Positions 21,727 through 49,635 of a DNA stretch of 64,000 nucleotides are shown here, in pieces. Below the pieces are notes generated by a model. It saw nothing but the letters and a program-made list of their open reading frames with translations, was not told the DNA's origin and searched no databases. The stretch's first letter is position 1. Each line of letters opens with the position of its first letter. Made by a program: the position numbers and the translations under genes. Origin of the DNA: Salisediminibacterium beveridgei (GTDB lineage: Bacteria > Bacillota > Bacilli > Bacillales > Salisediminibacteriaceae); assembly GCF_001721685.1 (NCBI RefSeq), contig NZ_CP012502.1:2232001-2296000 (forward strand), written 5' to 3'.

Positions 21727-22752
21727 TCAGAAGAACAACATTCCGACTGCCAGAGCCATCACCGCCGACATTGTCGTCACAAGCGCAATATAAGTCACCG
21801 TTTTCTTCAGACCCATGACACGTCCGACGATGATCATATTCGGAAGACTCATCGAAGGTCCCGCAAGTAAGAGTGCCAAAGCAGGCCCCTTTGCCATGCC
21901 CAGATCAAGAAAGCTCTGTACAATCGGTACTTCAGTCAATGTGGCAAAGTACATGAAGGCCCCGAAAATGGCTGCAAGGAACGTTGCAGAGATGGTATTG
22001 TCTCCTGCTGCTGCAGTCATGAAGGTTTCTGGAATTAACACCGTAATGATCCCGGCTATGAATATCCCCACAATAAACAAAGGAACGATTTTTTTCACCA
22101 GATCATAGGTCTCCAGACACCATTCCCATAATTCATCACGCTCAAAGAAAAGCATGAGTTGAATAAGCAGAAAAATGAAAGCTGCCCCTGTCACCGCCGG
22201 CAGATTCATTCCGGCAAGAAGCATAACCAGCAGGGTAATAAAAAACAGAACCGTCTGCCAGAGCGGTTTGTCCGAACCGTCCTGCACATGGAAGATCGCG
22301 CTGTTTCTGTCTGATTTCTTCTCTTCTTTATGAAAAATCAGGTGCATCAATACCCCAATCAACACCGCAAGGATCATCGCAGTTACCACACGGCTGATAC
22401 CGAGTCCGATACCGAGAAAGCTGAATGTGAACGTAATGGCCAATACATTGATCGCCGGTCCCGAGAACAAAAAAGTCACTGCCGGACCGATCCCTGCTCC
22501 CTTTTTCCAAATGCTGGCGAACATAGGCAGAACCGAGCACGAACAAACCGTGAGAATAACCCCGGACACAGATGCCATCGTAAATGCCGTCGATTTCTTA
22601 GCTTCAGGGCCGAAATATTTCAGCACCACACCCTGGCTCATAAACTGGGCAATGGCACCCGATAAGAAAAAGACGATCGTGAGTGTAATCACCCTGGGTA
22701 CAGTGAAATAATCCACAAGAAACTGCCATCCGGCTAACAGGATCTCCATCAT
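21727..22752 (-). CDS. ArsP/UPF0718-type permease
   Basis: This protein of about 341 residues with 8-10 membrane helices has the family motif TVCSCSVLPMFASIWKKGAG early and FATLTEVPIVQSFL plus LLAGPSMSLPNMI late. ArsP members export trivalent organoarsenicals, but the broader UPF0718 family may move other substrates. It lies between an ArsR-type repressor (TGATG overlap) and a mini-thioredoxin. I use the ATG at 22752; a GTG three codons upstream also fits the frame. The substrate, metalloid or thiol compound, is inferred from context. Confidence 0.85.
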   Translation of the reverse strand: MMEILLAGWQFLVDYFTVPRVITLTIVFFLSGAIAQFMSQGVVLKYFGPEAKKSTAFTMASVSGVILTVCSCSVLPMFASIWKKGAGIGPAVTFLFSGPAINVLAITFTFSFLGIGLGISRVVTAMILAVLIGVLMHLIFHKEEKKSDRNSAIFHVQDGSDKPLWQTVLFFITLLVMLLAGMNLPAVTGAAFIFLLIQLMLFFERDELWEWCLETYDLVKKIVPLFIVGIFIAGIITVLIPETFMTAAAGDNTISATFLAAIFGAFMYFATLTEVPIVQSFLDLGMAKGPALALLLAGPSMSLPNMIIVGRVMGLKKTVTYIALVTTMSAVMALAVGMLFF

Positions 22753-23096
22753 CACATCCACCCTCTAAGCCATTGCTTCACTTTCTCTTTATCCGCATGA
22801 AGGTGAAACAAGGTATATTTCCCATCTTTTGAAGAAGCAATCAGACCCGCCTTCTCCAGAATTGAAAGATGATGGGTGATCGTCGATGCAGCGCCATCCA
22901 ATGCGTCAACAAGCTCACATTTGCAGCACCTGCGCTCAACGAGCATCCCGAGAATCTCCAGGCGCACCGGATCCCCAAGTGCTTTATAGACTGCTGCGGT
23001 ATCGGCTGCATTTCTAAGACCTGCGTGTTGATCCCGCACGTTCGCAAGCAGTGAACGACTCTCCTTTTGGTTTAAGATAGACAAGGTCTGTTTCAT
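22752..23096 (-). CDS. ArsR-family metal(loid)-responsive repressor
   Basis: This 114-residue winged-helix protein has YKALGDPVRLEILGMLVE, RRCCKCELVDALDGAASTITHH and LEKAGLIASSKDGKYTLFHL. The Cys-Cys-x-Cys in the alpha-3 region corresponds to the classical ArsR/SmtB inducer site, so it probably senses a thiophilic metal(loid). It heads the operon with the ArsP-type permease and thioredoxin. ATG at 23096 has GGAGAGGG 5 bases upstream; the frame extends 33 codons upstream but without support. Confidence 0.9.
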   Translation of the reverse strand: MKQTLSILNQKESRSLLANVRDQHAGLRNAADTAAVYKALGDPVRLEILGMLVERRCCKCELVDALDGAASTITHHLSILEKAGLIASSKDGKYTLFHLHADKEKVKQWLRGWM

Positions 23097-23175
23097 CGAA
23101 ACCCTCTCCTTTACTGCTTCCAATATATCATATAAAACTACAAAACTAGTTATGTAATTATGATAAATTTGTGAC

Positions 23176-23217
23176 AAAAAAACACTGCCCGTCATGAATC
23201 CAACGGCAGTGTTTTTT
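23176..23217. terminator. Bidirectional hairpin between arsR and the chemoreceptor
   Basis: Arms with seven-A and seven-T ends flank ACACTGCC / GGCAGTGT. It lies just after the chemoreceptor stop codon on the minus strand, so it mainly terminates that gene. Confidence 0.75.
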
Positions 23218-37415: not shown

Positions 37416-38390
37416 TCACTCAGGGGCCTGAGGATCATCTTCCGTACGTTCGTGCAACATCCCGAGTTGCTGCAGCTTTTTATACCGTTCCACTGCGAGA
37501 ATCCCCTGCCAGGAACGTCTCGCACTGGCAAAGGCTTCGGGAAACTGGCCCCATTGCCAATTGATATCCCAGATACCTTTGTCCAAACGGGTGTCCTGCC
37601 AATACTGAATCTGCCTTTCCACCAGTTTCTGATCAAAACCCAGTTCGTCAGCATCACGCCATGTATGCACAAAGTCCAGCGGCAGTGACTGATAGCCTTC
37701 GCCCCAATTGTCAGGATTCGTTTCAACAGCCTGATAAATCAAGGCGTGCAAGTGACTTTGACACTGACTGAACGAGAAACCTGTCTCCTCTTCAATCGCC
37801 GGAAAATGATGCTTCACAAGCCATAACGCATACTGAAAATTACTCAATTCATGAAAATCCATGTCCTCCGAAAGCATCAGCCGCTTGATGGCCTTTCGCA
37901 TGGTCAGCATCCCCGCCTCAAAAGCTCCGGGAGCGGCATCAGCCCAGTGCATGCAATACGCAGCCAGTTCCACACCCGGGTTGAACTGCCAAACATCCTG
38001 CGCCCCTTCACTCCATGTCCACCACGGCGCACGGGGATAGTCATTCATCTCCGGGATCGTCGTCGCCCACATTCCGGTCGCTCTGTCCTGAGTCTCAATC
38101 AAATACCGGACCAGATGCTGTACAGTGAGCATGTCACATGTGGCATCCAGTTCCAACAGGATTCTGGCTGCAGTCCAGCTCCCGATTGCGGTGGAACCCG
38201 GGTAGGTGAAATCCGGCTCAATTCCGAAACCGAACCCCCCATCCTTGTTTTGATAGACGCCCAGGGCTGCATACACATCTTCAACCGGCCCTTTTTCAAA
38301 CAAGAAGCGGTACCTGGCCAGTTCAAGAGGCCGTGCATAAATAAACAACCATTCTCTCGCATCCCTTGGGTGCAGTGTGAATCCGCTCAT
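37416..38390 (-). CDS. Alpha-toroid (terpenoid-cyclase/prenyltransferase-fold) protein, unknown
   Basis: This protein of about 324 residues contains repeats of the alpha-alpha toroid class: VYAALGVYQNKDGGFGFGIEPD and YLIETQDRATGMWATTIPE, with QW/GGFG-like motifs. It resembles squalene-cyclase or prenyltransferase-type folds but has no DXDD/DCTAE-type catalytic motif that I can see. The ATG at 38390 has GGAGG 8 bases upstream. It lies 14 bases after an unknown 371-residue gene and is co-transcribed with it. A binding or scaffolding role is as likely as catalysis. Confidence 0.65.
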   Translation of the reverse strand: MSGFTLHPRDAREWLFIYARPLELARYRFLFEKGPVEDVYAALGVYQNKDGGFGFGIEPDFTYPGSTAIGSWTAARILLELDATCDMLTVQHLVRYLIETQDRATGMWATTIPEMNDYPRAPWWTWSEGAQDVWQFNPGVELAAYCMHWADAAPGAFEAGMLTMRKAIKRLMLSEDMDFHELSNFQYALWLVKHHFPAIEEETGFSFSQCQSHLHALIYQAVETNPDNWGEGYQSLPLDFVHTWRDADELGFDQKLVERQIQYWQDTRLDKGIWDINWQWGQFPEAFASARRSWQGILAVERYKKLQQLGMLHERTEDDPQAPE

Positions 38391-38404
38391 GTCATCAGCC
38401 TCCT

Positions 38405-39520
38405 TCAAGAAGTTTGAGCATCGTTTTGAGCACTTTCTTTTACTCTGCGCCAAGCTGACGTGGAGTGAAGTGTCTCCAGATCAATCACCTGCTTATACTC
38501 ATATGTCGCAGGCCATTGACGAAATACCGATTTCTCCTGAAACATCAATTTTGTAAATAACGAATCAGGTACCGCGCACCAGCCACCTTCAGGCAAAAGC
38601 ATCAGTGTGACTTTGCTGCCTTGTCGTTCAACAATATATTTTCCTTCAATCGTACCCATTTCCGGCTTGGCCCGGATACTGAACAAACCGGAAACAGAAT
38701 GATTATCCTGTATCGTTCGAATATCCGGAATGCCTTCGGAAAATATCACTTCTAACGGATGATCGTCAGTTATCGCCTCCATCCGCTGTAAAGCCGAGTT
38801 TTCAGAGAAAGTATATTTGACTTCAGCTGTTTCTGCCACACCATTTTCCTCGACCGGCAACCGTTTTAGTGTTTCTTCGAATGAAGGCGCAAACTCGACG
38901 ATCTGACAATCATCACTGTAGCGGGCATAATAGCGCCACTGCATGTCTTTTGGAACAGGATAAGGAAACGGATCCATCTGATATTCCTGGTCATCGATTT
39001 TAACGGACGCCTCAGTGCCTCTTTTTCTGACGAAGTCAAACTGATAGAGAAAGAATACAGGCAAATACGTTGGATTCAATGAAGAAGAGCCGACAGGGGC
39101 AAGAAGGGATACACCCTTGGAAGATTTCGTTGAATGCTCCTGAATCTTCACCTGAACGTGTCGACCATACTTATCGAGAAAAGAGAAACTCAGCCTCAGC
39201 CGGTCCTGTTCCCGGAAAAAGGCAACATTCTTAATCGTCGTGGTGATGCGTTCACACAAGCCCTTTCCTGTCACATCAAAGCTTTGTTCATTTTCCAAAA
39301 CCAGCTGTGGCTCATCATACACATCCACATACCCATCGAGCCGATATGCAATGACCCGGTATCCGGTGATTCCATCTTTTTGTTTGATCCATTGCGGTTC
39401 CAGTCCCATATAATACTGATCCGGATCTTTTTCAATATTCACCAGTGCAAGTTTCCGGATTTCGGTATAACGGAACCCGAAAAGAATCACAGCCGTTTGC
39501 CTTTTCTCTTGAACAGACAT
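38405..39520 (-). CDS. Unknown protein, first gene of a two-gene operon
   Basis: This 371-residue protein has no signal peptide or transmembrane helix. It is rich in beta-like stretches (WIKQKDGITGYRVIAYRLDGYVDVYDE, SFSFLDKYGRHVQVKIQEH) and could be a lipocalin-like or beta-barrel protein. I do not recognise a family. It stands 14 bases upstream of the alpha-toroid gene with a shared promoter, and a strong terminator separates it from the arr-like operon upstream. A joint role with the toroid protein is inferred from the spacing. Confidence 0.6.
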   Translation of the reverse strand: MSVQEKRQTAVILFGFRYTEIRKLALVNIEKDPDQYYMGLEPQWIKQKDGITGYRVIAYRLDGYVDVYDEPQLVLENEQSFDVTGKGLCERITTTIKNVAFFREQDRLRLSFSFLDKYGRHVQVKIQEHSTKSSKGVSLLAPVGSSSLNPTYLPVFFLYQFDFVRKRGTEASVKIDDQEYQMDPFPYPVPKDMQWRYYARYSDDCQIVEFAPSFEETLKRLPVEENGVAETAEVKYTFSENSALQRMEAITDDHPLEVIFSEGIPDIRTIQDNHSVSGLFSIRAKPEMGTIEGKYIVERQGSKVTLMLLPEGGWCAVPDSLFTKLMFQEKSVFRQWPATYEYKQVIDLETLHSTSAWRRVKESAQNDAQTS

Positions 39521-39601
39521 GATCGTTCCTCCCTAATGTTCAATAAAAGTTTGTTACCTGCAGTATATCACTGAGGGATCTCCAAGTTGACATAAAAGCA
39601 G

Positions 39602-39630
39602 AAAAAGAGCCCGCCTCAGCGGACTCTTTT
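39602..39630. terminator. Terminator of the Arr-like operon
   Basis: AAAAGAGTCCGC / GCGGGCTCTTTTTC arms on the minus strand, ending with a T-run 12 bases after the arrC-like stop. Confidence 0.75.
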
Positions 39631-39642
39631 GAAAACCTTGAT

Positions 39643-40806
39643 TTATACAGCTTCATTCTTTTCCATTAATGACAGTTCATCTTCTTCATGGTGACCTGGT
39701 GTTTCATCAAGGGTAAGGAATTTCACGCCAATCAGGTAAAGCAGAACCGATCCGGCCATACCTCCAAGGAAAATGAACCATTCCGTTGGTGTTGTTGAAT
39801 ATGTGGCAACTTCAATCATTGTCGTATATGGCTGAACGAGCTGCCCTGCAATGATTGTCACATATTTATCCATGAACATCCCGATGATCACAAAGGCTGA
39901 AGCCGTCATCACCATTGCAGGCTTTCTTGAAGCAATGAGCATCACAAGAGGAATGACGAGTCCCAGTGCAATGGCTCCTCCCCAGTACATCAACGCATAT
40001 TGACCGCTGAAAAGAAGTTCATAATCAATTGACCCGGTATAGAAAAGTGAAATCAAACGCCATGCGTTAAATCCAAGAGCCACAACAATTCCAGCCCCTA
40101 AAATTTTCGTTAACCCATTCAGGTTATTGAGAACGAGCATTTCGCGTTTTTCACCACTCGCTTTAGCTGTGAAGTAGGAGACAATGATCAATAACGCGAG
40201 TCCGGAAACGGCAGCCGATAAGACGAAGAATACGCTTGTCGCATCTCCGAACCAGAGTGGACGCTGTACAGTGACCGCAAAGATACCACCCAGGATACTT
40301 GTTGCGGCAATTGCAGCTGCGAGCGTGAAATAAGACATGTAATGCATCAGCTTCTCGTTTTTAAGATGCATGGAAACAAATTCAACAAGAAGCAATACTA
40401 CGTAAACAGCATAGACAGCACCCATCCACCACATTGGAGCTTGAAGATTTGGATTGAGGATAAACTGGTATACACGGTCCAACCGTCCAAGTTCAAGTGA
40501 CAGGACCACTAAAGCAGGAATCACGACGACAATCGCTAAGAAAATCGCCCGCTTACTTAAAAACATATAGCTCTTTGCTCCAAGCAGGTGCGCTGCCGAA
40601 GCAAACATACACATACCACTCGCCATCAGGGCGAGGAATACATAGGCCACGATTAACAAGTTCCAAGGTACTTCATCCGATGAACCGAAAACCACCTGGC
40701 CTTGTATTAGTGTATTGACTGCACCGAACAGTCCGATCCCGAGAACAATCAATATTCCGACCAGTGCCGCTAATGTGACTGGTTTTATTTTTCTTTGAGC
40801 AGACAT
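39643..40806 (-). CDS. arrC: NrfD/PsrC-type membrane quinol-oxidising subunit (ArrC-like)
   Basis: This 387-residue protein has about eight to ten hydrophobic helices with NrfD-type features: FVSMHLKNEKLMHYMSYFTLAAA, PLWFGDATSVFFVLSAAVSG, and FVIIGMFMDKYVTIIAGQLVQP. NrfD/PsrC subunits anchor molybdopterin reductases and take electrons from the menaquinone pool. It is the last gene of an operon with catalytic, iron-sulfur and chaperone genes. The name ArrC follows from the ArrA-like catalytic subunit. Confidence 0.85.
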   Translation of the reverse strand: MSAQRKIKPVTLAALVGILIVLGIGLFGAVNTLIQGQVVFGSSDEVPWNLLIVAYVFLALMASGMCMFASAAHLLGAKSYMFLSKRAIFLAIVVVIPALVVLSLELGRLDRVYQFILNPNLQAPMWWMGAVYAVYVVLLLVEFVSMHLKNEKLMHYMSYFTLAAAIAATSILGGIFAVTVQRPLWFGDATSVFFVLSAAVSGLALLIIVSYFTAKASGEKREMLVLNNLNGLTKILGAGIVVALGFNAWRLISLFYTGSIDYELLFSGQYALMYWGGAIALGLVIPLVMLIASRKPAMVMTASAFVIIGMFMDKYVTIIAGQLVQPYTTMIEVATYSTTPTEWFIFLGGMAGSVLLYLIGVKFLTLDETPGHHEEDELSLMEKNEAV

Positions 40807-40832
40807 ATTGCTTTCCCTCCTTTTGTTTTGGG

Positions 40833-41456
40833 TTACGTCTGGTGTTCAAACTGACGCGCTTCCCATTCGATCACTTCTTCTGTGAATCGGGCCAGTTTTA
40901 CATAAAACGGCTCATTCGCATTTTCTCTGATCTTTTTTGTGAATTTATAAACCCATGGCATCAGAAATTCACCGATAAACCGCTGCATGAGTTCCAAGTA
41001 TTTGAGCTCACCGGTTTCAACATACTTGAAATACAGAAAATACAGGAATTCAAATTCAACGGTGATATGATCTGCCGGCTGATGAAACACATTCAGCTTT
41101 TCAACACCTGAATTTCCGTAAAATTTTTCAACGGCCTTTGTGGAATCCCCCATCAACCGTCGCCCTTCATCGAGATAAACCGATCCGTAAGGCGGAGCCT
41201 TCATGTCAAAAGGACCAACAAAAAGCTTTGCATAGTCAATGACCAGTTTGTTTTCGTTTGATGTCAACGGATACTTTTCCAGTTCGTTTGCCAAATCTTC
41301 AGCCTTCAAAGCCAGTGCAGGATGAAGTTCTTCCAGGGCTTCGATCAGATAATCCATGTAGCCAAGGAGATCAGTCCCTGGCTCTTTATACAATTCACTC
41401 ATGACTTTGAAGAGATTTGCTTTATAATGAAACTCCCCTAATTCTGCTGTACTCAT
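40833..41456 (-). CDS. arrD: TorD/DmsD-family assembly chaperone (ArrD-like)
   Basis: This protein of about 207 residues is helical, with KLFVGPFDMKAPPYGSVYLDEGRRLMG matching the TorD motif and DHITVEFEFLYFLYF later. Such chaperones bind the signal region of the catalytic subunit until the molybdenum cofactor is inserted. ATG at 41456 has GAGGGGTGA upstream with about 9-base spacing. It lies between the iron-sulfur subunit and the membrane subunit, 7 bases after the former. Confidence 0.88.
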   Translation of the reverse strand: MSTAELGEFHYKANLFKVMSELYKEPGTDLLGYMDYLIEALEELHPALALKAEDLANELEKYPLTSNENKLVIDYAKLFVGPFDMKAPPYGSVYLDEGRRLMGDSTKAVEKFYGNSGVEKLNVFHQPADHITVEFEFLYFLYFKYVETGELKYLELMQRFIGEFLMPWVYKFTKKIRENANEPFYVKLARFTEEVIEWEARQFEHQT

Positions 41457-41480
41457 GATGATCTCACCCCTCAAAGTCGA

Positions 41481-42173
41481 TTATTTGCTGAATTTTCTCA
41501 AGTAGAATACTTTTGGTTTTGTTCCGAGCTCTTCTTTTAACCCCTCGTGACTGTATTTTAACAACTCATGGATTTTATCATCCGGATCATTCAAGTCACC
41601 GACGTACATCGCTTCAGATGGACATCTGTCCACACAGTATGGCTGCTCATCTCTTGCCAGTCTGTGATCACAGAACTGACATTTCTCAACAATGCCCCGG
41701 TAACGGATTGATTCATAGTTGTAATCACGCTCTGGGTTGTGATACGGGATCGGTGCGCCAGCATGGTCCTGAACTTCTTTTGGCGTAGCTGAGAGCTCGC
41801 TCCATGCGTTGTTTTCATTCCAGTACTGATGCGGGTTCTCCTTATTATAAGAGATGACGCCGTATGGGCAGGCTGTCATACATGCTTTACATCCGATACA
41901 ACGGTCTGCATCGTGGAGTGTCAAGCCATCTTCATCCTTGTACATCGCTGTCACCGGGCAGGCTTTAATACACGGTGCATTATCACAGTGATTACAAAGT
42001 GTTGGCATGAAATCATAGCGTACATGCGGGAATTCCCCGGTCTCTTTTTTCGTGTAGTGCATCCAGTTGATTCCGTCAACGGTGTTATTCTCGTTTTTAC
42101 AAGTGACCGCACAACCAGCACAACCGATACACGCTTGTAAGTCTATTGTCATTGCATAATTTTTCTTAGCCAT
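41481..42173 (-). CDS. arrB: Four-cluster ferredoxin-type iron-sulfur subunit (ArrB-like)
   Basis: This protein of about 230 residues has four [4Fe-4S] binding sets: CIGCAGCAVTC; CNHCDNAPCIKACP; CIGCKACMTACPYG; and CQFCDHRLARDEQPYC with CP nearby. It carries electrons from the NrfD subunit to the molybdopterin subunit. There is no signal peptide, so it travels with the Tat-exported catalytic subunit. The ATG at 42173 has GGAGG 8 bases upstream. Typical length of PsrB/ArrB proteins. Confidence 0.93.
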   Translation of the reverse strand: MAKKNYAMTIDLQACIGCAGCAVTCKNENNTVDGINWMHYTKKETGEFPHVRYDFMPTLCNHCDNAPCIKACPVTAMYKDEDGLTLHDADRCIGCKACMTACPYGVISYNKENPHQYWNENNAWSELSATPKEVQDHAGAPIPYHNPERDYNYESIRYRGIVEKCQFCDHRLARDEQPYCVDRCPSEAMYVGDLNDPDDKIHELLKYSHEGLKEELGTKPKVFYLRKFSK

Positions 42174-42201
42174 TTGTTTCACCTCCGCTTATTGTCTTCT
42201 C

Positions 42202-44754
42202 TTATACTTTCTCCACTCGAACGCGTGTCTGTCCACCGTGTCTGGCGCCGCTTCCACTCAATGCTTCATGAACCGGTGCGAGAATAATGTTGTTATTTCC
42301 ACCCCGAGCAATTTGACGACGGCGATCCAGAGATGCGATATGCCCGTATGCCCAGTGGCCCTGTCCGTAACATTTTGCAACGACACCTGGTCGTGTACCT
42401 TCCCAAAGCTTGGCTTTCACTTCGATTTGACCTTCAGGCGTCACCAGACGGACCATATCACCATTCTCGATGCCCAGTTCTGCAGCATCTTTCGGATTCA
42501 GCTTGGCCACATCGTCCCACGCTTCGTCACCCAGGTCGATATCCTTGAATTCCTGATACCAGCTCGTATTGGCTGAACGTGCCTCACGGTTCAACTTGGA
42601 ACGGTGTTCCATGAAAATAAGCGGATATTCGGACTCATCGCCAACTCGTTTAGCCGGCTCATAGTGAGGAACAAATGCCCCGTCTCCGCGGACGGTGTTA
42701 AATGTCGCTTCCATCACGTCATCAATACTGACGTTATGCTTATCCGCATGATCCTGAAGCGCTGCTTTCAAGGTTTCACTGTAGAATTCAAACTGGCCGG
42801 TTTCCGTGCCCCAATTGCCGTCCCACTTCTGACGGAATTCATAACGGTTTGTATTCCAGGTACCGAGTCGTTTGTACTCTTCCCATCCGTCAATCTGATC
42901 TCCGTCTTTTTCGAAGGTTGGATCCCAAACCGGGTGCGTAAAGTGTTTCGTAGCAATTTCATCGAATTCTGCAGCATTTGTTGGGGCATCTCCGGTTTCA
43001 GGATCTCTGAATTCATTCCGGAAATAATCAATCAGGTTCGAAAATCCTTTTTTCTCAAGCGCTTCACCGAGCATCCATGGAATCTCGGTTTCATCAACAC
43101 GGATGTCAAACGGTGATTCAATTACACGGTTTTGCAAGTGCAGGTGACGGTGGAGGTTTCCGTTACTGCCGGCAACAGGGCTTTGGCGCTCAAACTGCGA
43201 GTGCGGTACAGGCAACACGATATCAGCAAAGTGTGTCTGTTCAGCCGGATTGACCGTCATATGCACCATAAATGGAATTTTTGCCAATGCTCTGTCCCAA
43301 CGATCCGTCCCTTGATTGGAGAAATTGAAGTTGGTCCAATAGCTCAGTACCACTTTCAGATTATAAGGATCCTCTGCAAGAACCGCATCGGCAACGGTGT
43401 TCGTCACTTTCACACCACCGGATGCACTGTCTTTTAATGCAGGCAGTTCCAGTCTGCCGCCCCAGTCGATTCGTTCTTGTTCCAAGCCATTTGCTGCAAT
43501 CTCATCAATATAATCATCCGGATCAGGGAAACCGTTGTTCGGAACAGAGATCCCGTTACTGATGACGCCGCCTTCGTTATCTGCAGAACCGACGAGACCG
43601 TTCAGTGCTGCTTGCGTCATCGCGGTATAACCGCCGCGGATTGTCATGCTTGATCCTGGTGAAGAGAAAGAGATCGCCTTCGGTGCAGCATTGGCAAAGC
43701 CTCTGGCTACACGGTAGATCTGATCTGCTTCGATACCGGAACGTTCAGCTGCCCATTCAGGTGTTTTATCTTTCAGTTCAAGATTCCACCATTTCACAAG
43801 ACCATGGGTTTGAATTTCTTCGAAGTCGTCTTCATCGACGTCCTCACCTTCGACAAATCGATTTTGTCCATCTGTGAAATCCCCGACGAACGGCTTATAC
43901 CACAGTCCTTCGGTTAAAATGACGTGGGCAATCGCTGAAGCAATCGCGCCGTCTTCACCTGGAATAACCGGCATCCATTCATCTGATTTTGCTGCCGTCG
44001 TGGAAAATCGCGGATCTACACATGCGAGTGTGGCTCTGTCAGACAGCTCGCCCCAGATGCTTGCAGTGTGCGGTACCTGACGGTTTGTTGCGATCGGATC
44101 GCCGCCCCAGAAGATTTCATACAGTGCTTTTTCATGATCATAGTCGGCATAGCCCCAGTAACGTTCTGTGTAATAACGCCCGAATTTTTCAGACTCGGCA
44201 CAGATCGAACTGTGGGAAATGTTATTTGGTGAACCGATGATTTTCGGTAAGTTCCCGTAAAGAATGCCATTGTTCGACGTGTAACGTCCGCGCCAGACGC
44301 TGAATTTATGCGTTTCGTTATTTTCACGAAGCTCAATAATCTTCTCAGCAATGGTATCCATGGCTTCTTCCCAGCTGATCGGTACAAATTCCGGATCTTC
44401 GTCACGGCCTTTGTTCGGGTTGGTTCGCTTCATTGGCTGCTTAACCCGGTCCGGGTCATACACTTGTTGCAGACCGATGTGGGATCTGACACAGGAATGA
44501 CCGTGGTTGGCCTTTGCATTCGGATTTCCCCGTACCTTTGTTGCTCTTCCATCAATTCTGTACACCTGGACTGCGCACCATGCCGTACACCCTTGACATA
44601 CACTTGCGATCCATTCACCTTGTTCAACGTTTTCCTGACTTGCTTCTGTTTTGGTTGAGAACGCATTCAAAGCCGGTTTGGTTGATGCGGCCCCTGCTGC
44701 AAATAACCCGGTTGCTGCGGATGCTTTTAAAAAACCTTTTCTTGATAATTTCAA
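42202..44754 (-). CDS. arrA: Molybdopterin oxidoreductase catalytic subunit, respiratory arsenate reductase-like
   Basis: This protein of about 850 residues has a Tat-type leader (SRKGFLKAS; Arg-Lys instead of Arg-Arg). The [4Fe-4S] set C-x2-C-x3-C-x27-C is at about 58-93 (numbering from the upstream ATG at 44769), and the molybdenum ligand is Cys190 in HSSICAESEKFG. FVGDF (294-298) and TPEWA (336-340) are, as I recall, the motifs targeted by degenerate arrA primers. Length also fits ArrA (about 850) better than PsrA/PhsA (about 760). Thiosulfate, polysulfide, tetrathionate or selenite reductase remain possible. The start is likely TTG at 44754, with GGAGG 8 bases upstream. Confidence 0.8.
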   Translation of the reverse strand: MKLSRKGFLKASAATGLFAAGAASTKPALNAFSTKTEASQENVEQGEWIASVCQGCTAWCAVQVYRIDGRATKVRGNPNAKANHGHSCVRSHIGLQQVYDPDRVKQPMKRTNPNKGRDEDPEFVPISWEEAMDTIAEKIIELRENNETHKFSVWRGRYTSNNGILYGNLPKIIGSPNNISHSSICAESEKFGRYYTERYWGYADYDHEKALYEIFWGGDPIATNRQVPHTASIWGELSDRATLACVDPRFSTTAAKSDEWMPVIPGEDGAIASAIAHVILTEGLWYKPFVGDFTDGQNRFVEGEDVDEDDFEEIQTHGLVKWWNLELKDKTPEWAAERSGIEADQIYRVARGFANAAPKAISFSSPGSSMTIRGGYTAMTQAALNGLVGSADNEGGVISNGISVPNNGFPDPDDYIDEIAANGLEQERIDWGGRLELPALKDSASGGVKVTNTVADAVLAEDPYNLKVVLSYWTNFNFSNQGTDRWDRALAKIPFMVHMTVNPAEQTHFADIVLPVPHSQFERQSPVAGSNGNLHRHLHLQNRVIESPFDIRVDETEIPWMLGEALEKKGFSNLIDYFRNEFRDPETGDAPTNAAEFDEIATKHFTHPVWDPTFEKDGDQIDGWEEYKRLGTWNTNRYEFRQKWDGNWGTETGQFEFYSETLKAALQDHADKHNVSIDDVMEATFNTVRGDGAFVPHYEPAKRVGDESEYPLIFMEHRSKLNREARSANTSWYQEFKDIDLGDEAWDDVAKLNPKDAAELGIENGDMVRLVTPEGQIEVKAKLWEGTRPGVVAKCYGQGHWAYGHIASLDRRRQIARGGNNNIILAPVHEALSGSGARHGGQTRVRVEKV

Positions 44755-45245
44755 AATGTCCACCTCCATATATATTCAAAATCATTAACGACCATTACTG
44801 AAATCAATAACCTTGCCCCCTTTTGAGACATATTAAGATTTTCTTATACGTTTAGTTTAATATATCCAGTCCTCCCTGAACCGACTCAAATGTGAAGATT
44901 TTCGCAAGTAAGCGTGACAATCCTGTGACTTTCGATCTATCGATTGTTTGGAACCCTCCACAAACTACATGAAATAATGAACATTCAGGGAAATTTAGCC
45001 TTCACCATCACCTCAATTTCATCATCATGTGAATACTTTAACTAGTTTCAGTATGCTTCAGCCCCAGTCGTTCTCTCTATCAGAAAAATGAGCAGAGTTT
45101 GTAGGGAAAAAACGAAATTGTGACTGAAAAAATCCCTACATAACCATATCGTAATATTTCATGACAATTTCCTGACCTTTCGTTTTGGGGCAGCCCTTTC
45201 TTATACAATGAAGGAAGCTGAAAATGTTTGAAGGGGGGAACCGTT
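44755..45245. promoter_or_regulatory. Divergent control region between the reductase operon and its regulators
   Basis: This 490-base AT-rich stretch has no gene. It holds a long inverted repeat (45100-45140) and must contain both divergent promoters. I saw no perfect FNR box. TTTCTTATACAATG (45200-45213) gives a plausible -10 for the binding-protein gene. Confidence 0.5.
45100..45140. promoter_or_regulatory. Inverted repeat, candidate response-regulator site
   Basis: Perfect 8-base arms TGTAGGGA (45100-45107) and TCCCTACA (45133-45140) are 25 bases apart, so their centres are about 33 bases (three helical turns) apart. Two half-sites on one DNA face suit a dimeric NarL-type regulator such as the one encoded at 48048-48704. 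Confidence 0.45.
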
Positions 45246-46175
45246 ATGGGGAAAATTCTTTCATCTGTCATGATGCTTTTTATCTTCCTGCTGGCCGGCT
45301 GTTCGAACGAGCGGGACCTGGATTTTATCACGATAAAAAGTGAGGATGTTTCAGAAATGAGTCAAGAGGACATCCAGATCAGAGATAATCACGAGGATAT
45401 CGTCAATATCGCTTTTGCTTCCGTTGTATCGCCGAAAGAAACAAAATCCAAATACGAGCTTCTGGTCGATTATATTGAAGAAGAACTTGAACGTCCTGTA
45501 AACGTCATCCGCAAACAGACGTATGATGAGGTCAATCAGCTGCTGAAAAACGGTGAGGTGGACATTGGATTTATCTGTTCATTGTCTTATGTGCTCGGGA
45601 GAGAGGAAGGGTTCCTCGAAGGCGTCGCTACGCCTGTTGTAAACGGTGAAGATATGTACAGATCCTACCTGATCGTCAACAAAAACAGTGATCTCTATGA
45701 GCTTGAAGACCTGCAAGGAACACGCTTTGCCTATATGGACCCCTATTCCTATTCGGGCCGGCTGGCAATGCTCGATTTGATTGAGCAAAAGGGTTTCAAC
45801 CGGGAAACCTTTTTTAAGGAAACGTTCTACACCTACAGTCACGATTACTCAGTCAATGCTGTGGCTAAAGGAGCTGTGGATGCTGCCTCGGTGGACAGCA
45901 TACTTTTCGACCTTTTGATCGAAAATGATAATGACTATGCCAATGAAATCCGGATCATAGATAAAGGCTCCTACGCCGGGGCCCCGCCGGTTGTTGTCTC
46001 GAGCCAGATTGATCCTGAACTGAAAGGGCAGTTTATCAACATCATGCTTACCCTTCATGAAAATCCTGAAGGGAAAGACATCCTCGACCAGGTTCAGATC
46101 GATTCCTACACCGGACTCAAACCATCTCATTACGACCCGATCGCGGACATCGTCGAGAAAATAGGTGATTTCTGA
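45246..46175 (+). CDS. PhnD-like substrate-binding lipoprotein, sensory partner of a two-component system
   Basis: This protein of about 309 residues has a lipobox (LLAGCSNE) and a PhnD/phosphonate-type binding fold: NIAFASVVSPKETKSKYELLVDYIEEEL, GEVDIGFICSLSYVLG, and GTRFAYMDPYSYSG. Binding proteins of this type often act as the receptor for a sensor kinase next door, as in the TtrS and Arx/Arr systems. Here its stop overlaps the kinase start (TGATG). The ligand may be the anion reduced by the divergent operon. ATG at 45246, AAGGGGGG upstream. Confidence 0.85.
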   Translation: MGKILSSVMMLFIFLLAGCSNERDLDFITIKSEDVSEMSQEDIQIRDNHEDIVNIAFASVVSPKETKSKYELLVDYIEEELERPVNVIRKQTYDEVNQLLKNGEVDIGFICSLSYVLGREEGFLEGVATPVVNGEDMYRSYLIVNKNSDLYELEDLQGTRFAYMDPYSYSGRLAMLDLIEQKGFNRETFFKETFYTYSHDYSVNAVAKGAVDAASVDSILFDLLIENDNDYANEIRIIDKGSYAGAPPVVVSSQIDPELKGQFINIMLTLHENPEGKDILDQVQIDSYTGLKPSHYDPIADIVEKIGDF

Positions 46176-48073
46176 TGCCGATCTTATTCAAAAAATTTGC
46201 CCGCTCTTTATCCGGATTTCCAATCCATTTAAAGATATACTTTATGGTGGTTTCAGCCATCGTGCTTTTAGCGCTGATCAGTCTCTTTGCCATTCGCATC
46301 TCAGTAACTGACACCATGTCGGTTCAGCTCGACGAACGGGTGAAATCCATCAGCGGTGACGTCGCGGCAAGAACCGGCGATTTACTGCTTACGAATAATA
46401 TTTATGCGATGCAGACCCTCGTCAATGACACGATCGATAATTACAATGACCTTGAGTATGTGTTTATTTTGAACGAGGACAATGAAGTGCTCGTTGATTC
46501 CTATTCAGATGGTCATGTATCTGAAGAAATCATTCATGCGAACAGCGTGGAAGATGAGGAATTTAATCATCTGCTGACCTTTCGCTCTGAAGAAGGGATT
46601 ATCCGTGATGCTGCAGCACCGGTGGATAAAGGCATTGACGGAACCGTACGCGTTGGACTTCGTGACGATTCCCTTGAAACCGCCATTTCCAGTGTGACCT
46701 TTCAGATTATCAGTTTTATGGTGCTTCTGATCCTTTTCTCGCTGGCCATCGTCATGAAGTTGACCCGTATTATTACCAATCCGATCAATGACCTCGTATC
46801 CTTGACCAATCGGGTTGCAAAAGGAGATATGACAGCCCGGATCGACGCTTATCCAAAAGATGAAATCGGTGATTTAACGGAATCGTTCCATGATATGCTC
46901 GGAACCCTTGAAACCGCAAAATCGGAGAAAGAAAACTATTTGAATCAGATTATTACAAGAAACAGAGAATTGACACTGCTCAATGATCTGTCGGATAACC
47001 CGCATACCATCAAAGACTTCAATCAAATGATGAATCATTTCGTCCGGGATCTCGTGCATGAACTGAAGCTCGGCAGTGGAGTCATTGAAGCAACGATTAA
47101 TCAGCAACAGGAGTATTTCAGCTACCAGGCGGAAGGCTGTCCTGCTGAAAACACCGCCTGTCTTGAAGATTGGACCTGTGTATGCGAAAAGAAAGAGTAT
47201 AATATTAAAAGCGTCTTTCCGATTTATTCGAATCAACAGAAAATCGGGCAGATTAAAATCTGCAGCGGCGACGTTCTCGATGCCTATTCAGAGAAAATCC
47301 TTGATTCCATCGCCAACCATCTCGGTACGGTGATCGAAAACAATGAACTGTCCCACGAAATCAAGAAAAAAGAGGAGATCAGGCAAATGCTTCTCGAAAA
47401 AATCATGACCGTTCAGGAAGACGAGCGAAAACGGATCGCCAGAGAACTGCATGATGAAACCGGTCACGCCTTATCATCCATCCTTCTCGGTCTGAAAATG
47501 ATGGAAGACGCCGAGAGTCCGGATGAGATCAATCATCAGATTCAGAAACTGCGCAAACTGACGCATCAGTCCATCGAAAATATTCATGACCTTGCCTGGC
47601 AGCTGCGACCGACCATTCTCGATAAATTCGGCCTTAAAGTCGCCATTGAACGGTATATGGAAGAATTCAAACAAAAGCTTGATATCGACTATGACGTACT
47701 GATCAACGGCATTGACACGACGCGCCTGACCCCTGAAATGGAAACCGCCATTTTCCGGATCGTTCAGGAATCCCTGACCAACATCTTCAAATATGCCAAT
47801 GCCAGTTCCGTCAGTGTGATCATTATCAGAAACGATGATTTGATTTCCGTTATCATTGAAGATGATGGCACAGGTTTCAATGTGGACAGCATGGTGAATA
47901 AAGATCCTTCCAAATTCAACCTGGGTCTGCACGGTATGCAGGAAAGAGCTTCACTTCTTGGCGGCACCTTTGAAATTGAATCCGAGACAGGCAAAGGCAC
48001 AGCCGTGATGGTCAAACTCCCGATCTCAGACGAAAGTGGTGAATCCTATGAAAACACGTATTATGCTGGTTGA
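46175..48073 (+). CDS. Sensor histidine kinase with HAMP and cysteine-rich GAF-like domain
   Basis: This 632-residue membrane kinase has helices near 15-38 and 180-205 around a 140-residue extracellular domain, and a HAMP (NRVAKGDMTARIDAYPKDE). A GAF-like region follows, carrying Cys322, 329, 335, 337 and 363 (C-x6-C-x5-C-x-C). A HisKA_3 dimerisation helix has phospho-acceptor His426 in IARELHDETG. The ATPase has IVQESLTNIFKYA and GLHGMQERASLLGG. The NarL-type regulator gene overlaps its end, and the binding-protein gene its start. The cysteine cluster suggests redox, metal or arsenite sensing in the cytoplasm. Confidence 0.92.
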   Translation: MPILFKKFARSLSGFPIHLKIYFMVVSAIVLLALISLFAIRISVTDTMSVQLDERVKSISGDVAARTGDLLLTNNIYAMQTLVNDTIDNYNDLEYVFILNEDNEVLVDSYSDGHVSEEIIHANSVEDEEFNHLLTFRSEEGIIRDAAAPVDKGIDGTVRVGLRDDSLETAISSVTFQIISFMVLLILFSLAIVMKLTRIITNPINDLVSLTNRVAKGDMTARIDAYPKDEIGDLTESFHDMLGTLETAKSEKENYLNQIITRNRELTLLNDLSDNPHTIKDFNQMMNHFVRDLVHELKLGSGVIEATINQQQEYFSYQAEGCPAENTACLEDWTCVCEKKEYNIKSVFPIYSNQQKIGQIKICSGDVLDAYSEKILDSIANHLGTVIENNELSHEIKKKEEIRQMLLEKIMTVQEDERKRIARELHDETGHALSSILLGLKMMEDAESPDEINHQIQKLRKLTHQSIENIHDLAWQLRPTILDKFGLKVAIERYMEEFKQKLDIDYDVLINGIDTTRLTPEMETAIFRIVQESLTNIFKYANASSVSVIIIRNDDLISVIIEDDGTGFNVDSMVNKDPSKFNLGLHGMQERASLLGGTFEIESETGKGTAVMVKLPISDESGESYENTYYAG

Positions 48074-48704
48074 TGACCATCCTGTATTCCGTTCCGGCTT
48101 GAAACACATTCTCTGTACGGAAACGGATTATCACGTGATCGCTGAGGCGGATGATGGCGAGTCTGCCATCGAGATGGCCGCTGAGATGATGCCGGACATT
48201 ATCGTCATGGATATCAGCATGCCGGGCCTTGACGGCATTGAAGTCACCCGCGAGATCAAAAAGAAACTTCCCGGCATCCGTGTACTGATGCTTACGATGT
48301 ATTCCGACGAAGCCTTTTTGAAAGAATCCCTCGATGCAGGTGCTTCCGGTTATGTGCTGAAACGGGCTGTCGATACTGAGCTTGTCCATGCCGTGAAACT
48401 GGTCATGAACGGGGAACATTACATCTACCCGACCCTGATTCCGAAACTTTACAATGCCAACCAGGCGCCACAGGCATCGGATAGTTCCAACGATGAACAG
48501 ATTCAATTCAGTCAACGGGAAAAAGAGGTTCTCAAATACATTGCCCTTGGCTATACGCAAAAAGAAATTTCAACGGAACTCTTCATCAGTATCAAAACCG
48601 TCGACACGTATAAGAAAAGAGTCATGGACAAGATCGGCTCCAAGAAAAAATCCGCCCTCGTCCGTTACGCGCTCAAGAACAACATCATCAGTAACTCCCT
48701 TTGA
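48048..48704 (+). CDS. NarL/LuxR-type response regulator
   Basis: This 218-residue protein has a receiver domain with Asp9, Asp10 and phospho-acceptor Asp55 (IVMDISMPGLDG) and Lys in the VLKRA position. A C-terminal helix-turn-helix follows: FSQREKEVLKYIALGYTQKE and LFISIKTVDTYKKRVMDK. The kinase gene overlaps its start by 26 bases. ATG at 48048 has AAAGTGGTG upstream; the frame continues four codons earlier. It probably activates the divergent reductase operon. The site at 45100-45140 is a candidate. Confidence 0.92.
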   Translation: MKTRIMLVDDHPVFRSGLKHILCTETDYHVIAEADDGESAIEMAAEMMPDIIVMDISMPGLDGIEVTREIKKKLPGIRVLMLTMYSDEAFLKESLDAGASGYVLKRAVDTELVHAVKLVMNGEHYIYPTLIPKLYNANQAPQASDSSNDEQIQFSQREKEVLKYIALGYTQKEISTELFISIKTVDTYKKRVMDKIGSKKKSALVRYALKNNIISNSL

Positions 48705-48732
48705 AACCAATCGTAACCGTTTTTTCAAACAG

Positions 48733-48766
48733 AAAACCATCCCGCTGAACAGTGCGGGATGGTTTT
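48733..48766. terminator. Bidirectional terminator after the response regulator gene
   Basis: Perfect 13-bp arms AAAACCATCCCGC / GCGGGATGGTTTT close the regulator operon and the convergent VanW gene. Confidence 0.85.
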
Positions 48767-48777
48767 CTTTATCCTCA

Positions 48778-49635
48778 TCATTCATCTGTTGACTGCACTT
48801 CGCTCTCACTATGGGTCAGTAAAGGATGATACATCATCAAGGCATGATTTTCCGTGATGTATTCGTCATCGATCTGCTTTCCTTGCCCGTTGAATACCTT
48901 TCGGTAGATCGTATTGTGTCTGACATAACCTCCCCAATGTTCGTGGGTAATCCGATGATCTTTTTGATAGACTTCGTAGGTCATCGAAGGAGGCAAAACG
49001 GATCGCCATTCTCCGTGAAGATGGGTCTCTGTCAGTTCGAAGCAAAGCTGGAATGGCTGATCCGTATCGTTTCGAATCTGCAGATCCAGGTAGTTATACG
49101 CGCAAGTTGCACCACTGCCAAAGGGTTGCGTTCGTTTCGAGTCTGGAAAGACATCATAACTGTGGCGATGACGTTCAACAACTGTCAAAGGGGTATGCAG
49201 CGTGATCCAGTAAATCAGATTGGAGAGCTGACACAATCCACCGCCTGTCCCTGATTTATAAGAGCCATAGTGGAGCACCATCCCTTTTTGATACCCCTTC
49301 CTTTTGGATGTGGAACCAATAAGTTTCCAATAAGACAGCGTTTCTCCGGGATAAACGACAACCCCGTTTAACTTATTGATGGCGATCTGGAGATTGGTGA
49401 TTTTATTTTCCTGATACCACATGTCCACATCCTTCAACTCTCGCCTCAGAATCGTTTTATGCGTTTTGTGTAAATATGGTAATGTTCTCTCTTCAATCGA
49501 CGAGGCGTACCTTTTTTGATCGGTCAAGTACTCGATCCGCCTTTTCAATCTGTAATATTTTGTACCGGCAAAAATTCTCAAACGACTTCTTTCTTTCGGC
49601 TTGATTTTCTCTGATGCAATCAGATTCCACTGCAT
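48778..49635 (-). CDS. VanW-family protein
   Basis: This protein of about 285 residues has the VanW core: NGVVVYPGETLSYWKLIGSTSKRKGY, GTGGGLCQLSNLIYW and ERHRHSYDVFPDSKRTQPFGSGA. No signal peptide is clear, the N-terminus being basic. VanW proteins accompany some vancomycin-resistance clusters but have no assigned reaction, and chromosomal members are common in bacilli. No van genes are present here. The ATG at 49635 has GGGGGAA about 7 bases upstream. Confidence 0.85.
   Translation of the reverse strand: MQWNLIASEKIKPKERSRLRIFAGTKYYRLKRRIEYLTDQKRYASSIEERTLPYLHKTHKTILRRELKDVDMWYQENKITNLQIAINKLNGVVVYPGETLSYWKLIGSTSKRKGYQKGMVLHYGSYKSGTGGGLCQLSNLIYWITLHTPLTVVERHRHSYDVFPDSKRTQPFGSGATCAYNYLDLQIRNDTDQPFQLCFELTETHLHGEWRSVLPPSMTYEVYQKDHRITHEHWGGYVRHNTIYRKVFNGQGKQIDDEYITENHALMMYHPLLTHSESEVQSTDE

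Follow-up and report, generated by a model that had tools for sequence, protein, structure and literature searches.

A putative arsenate respiration operon arrABDC with a divergent arrXSR module and a predicted ArrR operator in Salisediminibacterium beveridgei

Described arr systems and the Salisediminibacterium beveridgei locus

The respiratory arsenate reductase (Arr) system and arsenate sensing by ArrXSR, a module of binding protein (X), sensor kinase (S) and response regulator (R), have already been published, and the idea of a locus that both senses and respires arsenate is not new. XSR modules are reported to adjoin arr, also in Firmicutes (PMC5908839), and arrA, arrB, arrD and arrC were described as one operon in B. 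selenitireducens (PMC12607644). The locus analyzed here covers positions 39643..48704 of a 64,000-nt stretch (the window) from Salisediminibacterium beveridgei, whose genome consists of 3,582,268 bases in one contig. It is very probably the respiratory arsenate reductase operon arrABDC, with divergent arrXSR, of a haloalkaliphile of the Salisediminibacterium type, in which ArrX, ArrS and ArrR are proposed to control arr. The additions made here are a predicted ArrR operator, a cysteine-rich (Cys-rich) loop in ArrS and a set of accessories that vary between loci, namely the type of anchor, tatA and a polyferredoxin.

The locus of B. selenitireducens MLS10 shares with the window the divergent arrABDC/arrXSR layout and the same predicted operator, and its products are 96% (ArrA), 92% (ArrB), 80% (ArrD), 82% (ArrC), 66% (ArrX), 76% (ArrS) and 86% (ArrR) identical to those of the window. 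The two differ in the gene after arrR, which encodes an SBF-family transporter in MLS10 and is a VanW gene in the window, and in the twin-arginine translocation (Tat) signal, with RR in MLS10 and RK in the window. The MLS10 transporter gene (L086:14591-15682 (+)) belongs to the sodium/bile-acid-symporter family PF01758, and its product possibly exports arsenic. Purified Arr from MLS10 was reportedly described by Afkar in 2003.

In Chrysiogenes arsenatis (ArrXSR-ArrAB), a binding protein, a kinase and a regulator without AAA+ domain lie beside arr, as they do in the window (PMC5908839). The site proposed for that cluster, tcaggtttttccctga, has TTTTTCCCT in common with the block found in the window, where the predicted operator extends further and is linked to a -10 box. 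The available part of the same paper names no arrC or arrD for the Chrysiogenes cluster, for which its authors did not detect an arr promoter. The textbook order of arr genes is CAB or AB (PMC2500031), whereas the window has the order ABDC with a PsrC-like anchor downstream. According to the same source, ArrC is absent from Shewanella, which relies on CymA; the window has ArrC. Two plasmid clusters of the type ArxXSR-ArxB'ABCD (Sulfuricella, L106; Cereibacter, L107) resemble the window in having the same kind of XSR module, a sister enzyme of ArrA, an NrfD anchor and a TorD chaperone. They differ in that the enzyme belongs to the arsenite oxidase clade and carries GRGWG, an extra ArxB' is present, the kinase has no Cys-rich stretch and, in L106, the regulator is of the sigma-54 type.

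Catalytic subunit and probable sensor lipoprotein

Comparison with models, solved proteins and relatives gives good support to the 850-residue subunit being respiratory arsenate reductase ArrA, orthologous to the MLS10 enzyme. The subunit scored 1064.6 bits on the ArrA model and 235.3 bits on the PhsA model. Since the next-best ArrA-model match in the host genome reached 86.6 bits, the subunit is the only ArrA of the genome. The best match among solved proteins was 6cz7 (912 bits over residues 50-855, the next solved protein reaching 141 bits), which is named ArrA in the Protein Data Bank and which we take to be the Shewanella ANA-3 protein. In a tree of 29 rows the subunit paired with MLS10 inside an ArrA clade of 18 rows (support 100/99), with ArxA as sister group. 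Two ArxA rows, PhsA, DmsA, a haloarchaeal enzyme and six paralogues from the host genome fell outside the clade; these outside rows carry a long-branch warning, and the tree is without 6cz7 and without a named SrrA or PsrA row. The clustering with PsrA/PhsA that the sequence-only reading had named as counter-evidence did not occur. PhsA-type and other molybdoenzyme identities were rejected, as the subunit groups in the ArrA clade and not with PhsA.

RGRY was found at residues 160-163, where both ArxA references have GRGWG; the motif (R/K)GRY is reported to set ArrA apart from ArxA (PMC6549141). RGRY, SSxCAE and FVGDF are common to the window ArrA and 6cz7, and a single N-terminal [4Fe-4S] motif is formed by Cys 58, 61, 65 and 93. 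FVGDF, TPEWA and Cys190 had earlier been taken to favour an arsenate reductase. All three are present (FVGDF at residue 294 and TPEWA at 336 in the 855-residue numbering, in which Cys190 corresponds to Cys185 if arrA starts at TTG 44754), but TPEWA had to be given up as an Arr marker because a Thermus PsrA-type enzyme has it too; RGRY does favour Arr.

Two observations weigh against the assignment. The score of the subunit lies below the curated NCBIfam cut-off of 1600 bits (NF041714). However, the cut-off was also missed by the proteins of MLS10 (1068.7), Anaerobacillus arseniciselenatis (1062.4), Calidifontibacillus (1137.1) and Omnitrophota (1266.9), and none of six tested proteins reached it, so that it is too strict to decide ArrA membership. 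Automatic annotation with this cut-off will miss ArrA of the Bacillus type. In addition, the Tat motif at 44725-44754 (-) reads SRKGFLK, which is rare: RR was counted by eye in 119 of 120 listed ArrA homologues and RK in one (P0092). A Tat-exported subunit with the sequence SRR had been claimed earlier; the Tat-like motif is there, but not as SRR. Since almost every homologue has RR at this place, export of ArrA could be weaker, or the codon may be a read error.

The three genes opposite to arrABDC were assigned as arrX-arrS-arrR. The best solved relatives of the lipoprotein were ArrX (E 9.9e-49) and AioX (9.5e-36), followed by the phosphite binder PtxB (7.2e-22). The pocket residues listed for AioX (PMC5908839) were all present by alignment, namely Tyr88, Cys106, Tyr131, Ser161, Ser163, His192 and Asp210, with two conserved tyrosines competing for the place of Tyr131. 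Cys106 and Asp210 were kept in all 11 arr-linked ArrX copies and in both ArxX copies, and Ser163 was replaced by Thr in seven of the 11. Neither of the two other high-scoring PF12974 proteins of the host genome has the pocket cysteine. Most likely, the three-gene sensor detects arsenate and turns on the arr genes. The proposal of a self-contained "sense-and-respire cassette", put forward in the sequence-only reading, is the best interpretation, since the lipoprotein is closest to ArrX and AioX and the pocket is intact.

An enzyme of the ArxA type, that is an arsenite oxidase, or one running mainly in that direction, is very hard to credit. ArxA is the sister group in the tree and arx clusters likewise adjoin the XSR genes, but the ArxA references scored 431 and 438 bits on the ArrA model, differ from the window in the GRGWG/RGRY motif and lie outside the 100/99 clade. 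An ArxA identity was rejected for lack of GRGWG, for the position outside the ArxA clade and because no ArxB'-type gene was found in the window operon. Another explanation could be that ArrAB respires a different oxyanion in vivo (antimonate, selenite or selenate), which is sensed by ArrX; this is improbable. Its attraction is that the host genome (3.6 Mb) has 13 PF00384 matches and thus many molybdoenzymes, and a 2009 paper by Baesman, going by its title, is said to concern the respiration of selenium and tellurium oxyanions by kin. Kin are described as respiring these oxyanions besides arsenate (PMC11944866). On the other hand, an ArrX was found to bind arsenate (Kd 1 uM) and, weakly, phosphate (150 uM), and ArrX of the XSR type showed no binding of selenate, antimonite, sulphate or thiosulphate (PMC5908839). 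In the tree, moreover, the enzyme falls together with MLS10 into the ArrA clade, and it is another host paralogue, L007, that groups with PhsA. L007 may be of the selenite reductase type.

Predicted ArrR operator and Cys-rich stretch of ArrS

Between arrA and arrX, TGTAGGGA comes first and TCCCTACA begins 33 bases after its start; TTTTTCTGATA and a -10-like hexamer follow. The block is predicted to be the ArrR operator, to which we infer that ArrR binds. In 18 Bacillales genomes 19 arr loci were read, and XSR was found beside arr in 15 of them (one genome having two copies); three were without XSR and one, on a 4.3-kb contig, was indeterminate. All 15 XSR-bearing loci had the predicted operator upstream of the arr operon, against 0/3 loci without XSR; 14 were recognised with the strict pattern TCCCTACA-N(9-18)-TTWCYGATA and one with a relaxed pattern. 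The locus missed by the strict pattern, in genome G567, has TCCCTACA and ACTGATA in the same place and was caught by the relaxed pattern, which was written afterwards. The strict pattern gave 12 occurrences in 14 genomes, always ahead of an arr operon, and none in S. halotolerans, Salipaludibacillus keqinensis and S. daqingensis, the three that have arr but no XSR. A step of 33 bases was seen in the six loci with both arms and in the draft genome G210; one two-arm match away from arr, in G071, has a step of 32 bases. The operator lies ahead of arrA in the window and MLS10, ahead of tatA in L088, L090, L092, L095, L012 and L153, and ahead of an upstream arrC in L089, L091, L093, L094 and L149-L152.

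Two larger, overlapping sets of genomes were searched. Among 397 genomes of the order, the strict pattern was found in 14, corresponding to 10 of the 11 with ArrA (all but S. halotolerans) and 4 of the 386 without; a reversed control pattern occurred in 12 genomes, counted by hand. Among 193 genomes of one family it was found in 11, that is 6 of the 7 with ArrA and 5 of the 186 without, the control occurring in eight. Chance matches of the strict pattern are thus roughly as frequent as hits of the control, and the excess sits at arr. In a motif-free test with 20-mers the block was recovered in eight loci at 18-20 of 20 identical bases (seven with XSR, one unknown). All 20 block bases of L091, with an ArrA 58% identical, matched the window; S. 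halotolerans (84%) gave nothing above the shuffled level. A palindrome search revealed no dyad common to the loci and none in the window.

Several points weigh against the operator and its link to XSR. The pattern was derived from 11 of the loci on which it was tested, and the genomes matched later (G210, G466, G474 and G475) are close kin of the loci that served as source. In the motif-free test, the seven other XSR loci (14-16 identical bases) overlapped with shuffles (13-17) and with the loci without XSR (15 each), and in seven XSR loci only the operator core is common. The three relatives that carry arr without XSR indicate that XSR is not essential to the enzyme. The best X matches in these genomes, in the order named above, were at E 1e-16, at E 1e-18 and a 35% paralogue. 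No S was found at E 1e-60 in S. halotolerans and Salipaludibacillus keqinensis, and a 36% paralogue in S. daqingensis, R not having been searched genome-wide.

The block could alternatively be the site of a general regulator such as Fnr, or a mere promoter, which is considered rather unlikely. In its favour, the CTGATA element falls about where a -35 box would be expected. A general site should recur, yet the strict pattern occurs once in the host genome and in 4/386 arr-less genomes of the order. The block is also missing from the three arr operons whose genomes are without close X and S, and one of these genomes is that of S. halotolerans, whose ArrA is the second nearest in the tree.

ArrS contains a Cys-rich stretch between the HAMP and HisKA_3 domains. 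Cys 322, 337 and 363 were kept in 11/11 arr-linked kinases and Cys335 in eight; neither ArxS has the stretch. Among the 58 closest database kinases, taken irrespective of their genomic neighbours, Cys363 was found in 58, Cys337 in 52 and Cys322 in 43, and at least four cysteines in 55. As a point against, six of seven paralogous kinases also keep Cys322 and Cys363 (not 337). A structure model of ArrS places the cysteines partly within and partly next to a loop in a small alpha-beta domain. The loop is of low confidence (predicted local confidence, pLDDT, below 50 at 323-325 and 336-342; overall pTM 0.36), and the geometry of the cysteines can therefore not be read from the model. A profile search with ArrS touched the sensor domain 3o5y, presumably a GAF domain. 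The 50 listed matches of a fold search with the model were mostly kinase cores, and a literature search on NarX-type cysteine clusters returned nothing related. Perhaps the stretch is a second, cytoplasmic input for redox, O2 or arsenite. A wider proposal is made only tentatively: arsenate respiration in Bacillales may be a two-input circuit, with ArrX-arsenate outside and the Cys-rich stretch of ArrS inside (as Fe-S cluster or thiol, responding to oxygen, redox or arsenite), the output passing via an ArrR operator whose place shifts with the first gene of the operon (tatA, arrC or arrA) and which disappears along with XSR.

The sequences themselves show the gene identities, the clade, the pocket residues and the conservation of block and cysteines. 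For ligand and substrate, operator binding, direction of control and electron path the following course is proposed. ArrX would bind arsenate outside the cell and engage the extracellular domain of ArrS, which would phosphorylate ArrR. Binding of ArrR to the TGTAGGGA/TCCCTACA/CTGATA block upstream of the -10 box would then start arrABDC. ArrD would aid cofactor loading, ArrA would be exported with ArrB and docked to ArrC, and ArrC would hand menaquinol electrons via the Fe-S clusters of ArrB to arsenate. The Cys-rich stretch of ArrS may add its cytoplasmic signal.

Arsenate respiration mobilises arsenic into water, and the cassette predicts how it could be controlled in a Gram-positive: through a single sensor protein, a single kinase that may take a second input, and a short DNA block. 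The three relatives that keep the enzyme without both sensor and block are a natural experiment, by which the wiring is directly testable. Biosensors could make use of the block as a promoter that responds to arsenate.

Gene layout and variation among relatives

The seven genes sit where they had been placed earlier, each with the expected domains (Table 1). TTG 44754 is the more likely start of arrA, because ATG 44769 falls within the ribosome-binding stretch ATGGAGGTGG; the resulting length is that of the MLS10 protein. A scan for intrinsic terminators gave six sites against a mean of 8.6 in shuffles, so a single match is weak evidence; the arrC hairpin is the longest and lies directly after the stop codon. 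A sigma-70 scan gave seven promoter-like sites against 14.2 in shuffles, none of them at the predicted arr promoter. An RNA family search of 39500-48900 revealed no known family at the gathering threshold. A foreign island by composition was rejected (G+C 0.44-0.49 per kb in the cassette, 0.43-0.49 in the flanks). Two genes downstream of arrC, 37416-38453 (-) and 38405-39520 (-), had no Pfam or NCBIfam match at E 0.001.

Table 1. Features of the locus in window positions (aa, amino acids)
Feature	Position (strand)	Basis
arrA, catalytic molybdopterin subunit	42202..44754 (-), 850 aa from TTG 44754 (42202-44769, 855 aa from ATG 44769)	ArrA model, tree, 6cz7 match
arrB, Fe-S electron-transfer subunit	41481..42182 (-)	233 aa; ArrB model 294 bits, top of 62 families, below cut-off 450
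arrD, TorD/NarJ-type chaperone	40833..41474 (-)	213 aa; PF02613, 95 bits
arrC, NrfD/PsrC-type membrane anchor	39643..40806 (-)	387 aa; PF03916, 117 bits
Terminator-like hairpin 3' of arrC	39603..39630 (-)	12 pairs, loop of 4, T-rich tail
Predicted -10 element CATACT, arr promoter	45050..45055 (-)	By eye, 21-22 bases from CYGATA in aligned loci
Predicted ArrR operator	45078..45140 (-), 63 bp	TGTAGGGA 45140-45133; TCCCTACA 45107-45100; TTTTTCTGATA ending 45078
arrX, oxyanion-binding lipoprotein (PF12974)	45228..46175 (+), start TTG 45228 or ATG 45246	ArrX match; lipobox LAGC; pocket residues
arrS, sensor kinase	46175..48073 (+)	sCache, HAMP, Cys-rich GAF-like stretch, HisKA_3, HATPase
arrR, LuxR-type response regulator	48036..48704 (+)	PF00072 and PF00196

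In the window and MLS10 the XSR genes run divergently to arr; in the other 13 loci they lie downstream of the arr genes. A shorter NrfD anchor is found upstream of arrA in G071, G152, G085 and others (24-26% identical where BLAST aligned both). tatA is present in 16 of the 19 loci and a polyferredoxin gene in 15; the three Salisediminibacterium loci have neither. Genome G386 has the arr operon twice (L093, L094), and both are accompanied by an XSR module and a copy of the predicted operator. In two Omnitrophota loci A, B and D were seen, and no X, S or R within the DNA examined there.

An ArsR-ArsP operon had been reported 18 kb from the locus; the pair is real (ArsR 22752-23195, ArsP 21727-22761) but the distance is about 16.4 kb. 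In eight relatives (L089, L091, L093, L094, L149, L150, L151 and L152) the pair directly follows arrR, and in L107 the arx genes are likewise followed by an ArsR-permease pair. Anaerobacillus-type and Salipaludibacillus genomes contain paralogous XSR modules with about 35% identity (L096-L102). They adjoin thrS in L096, L097, L099, L100 and L101, and a gene for a multihaem cytochrome lipoprotein follows R in L096, L097 and L099, the last with additional Fe-S and NrfD subunits. The paralogous X proteins keep Cys106, and Asp210 is replaced by His (5/7) or Tyr (2/7), for which reason they likely have another ligand.

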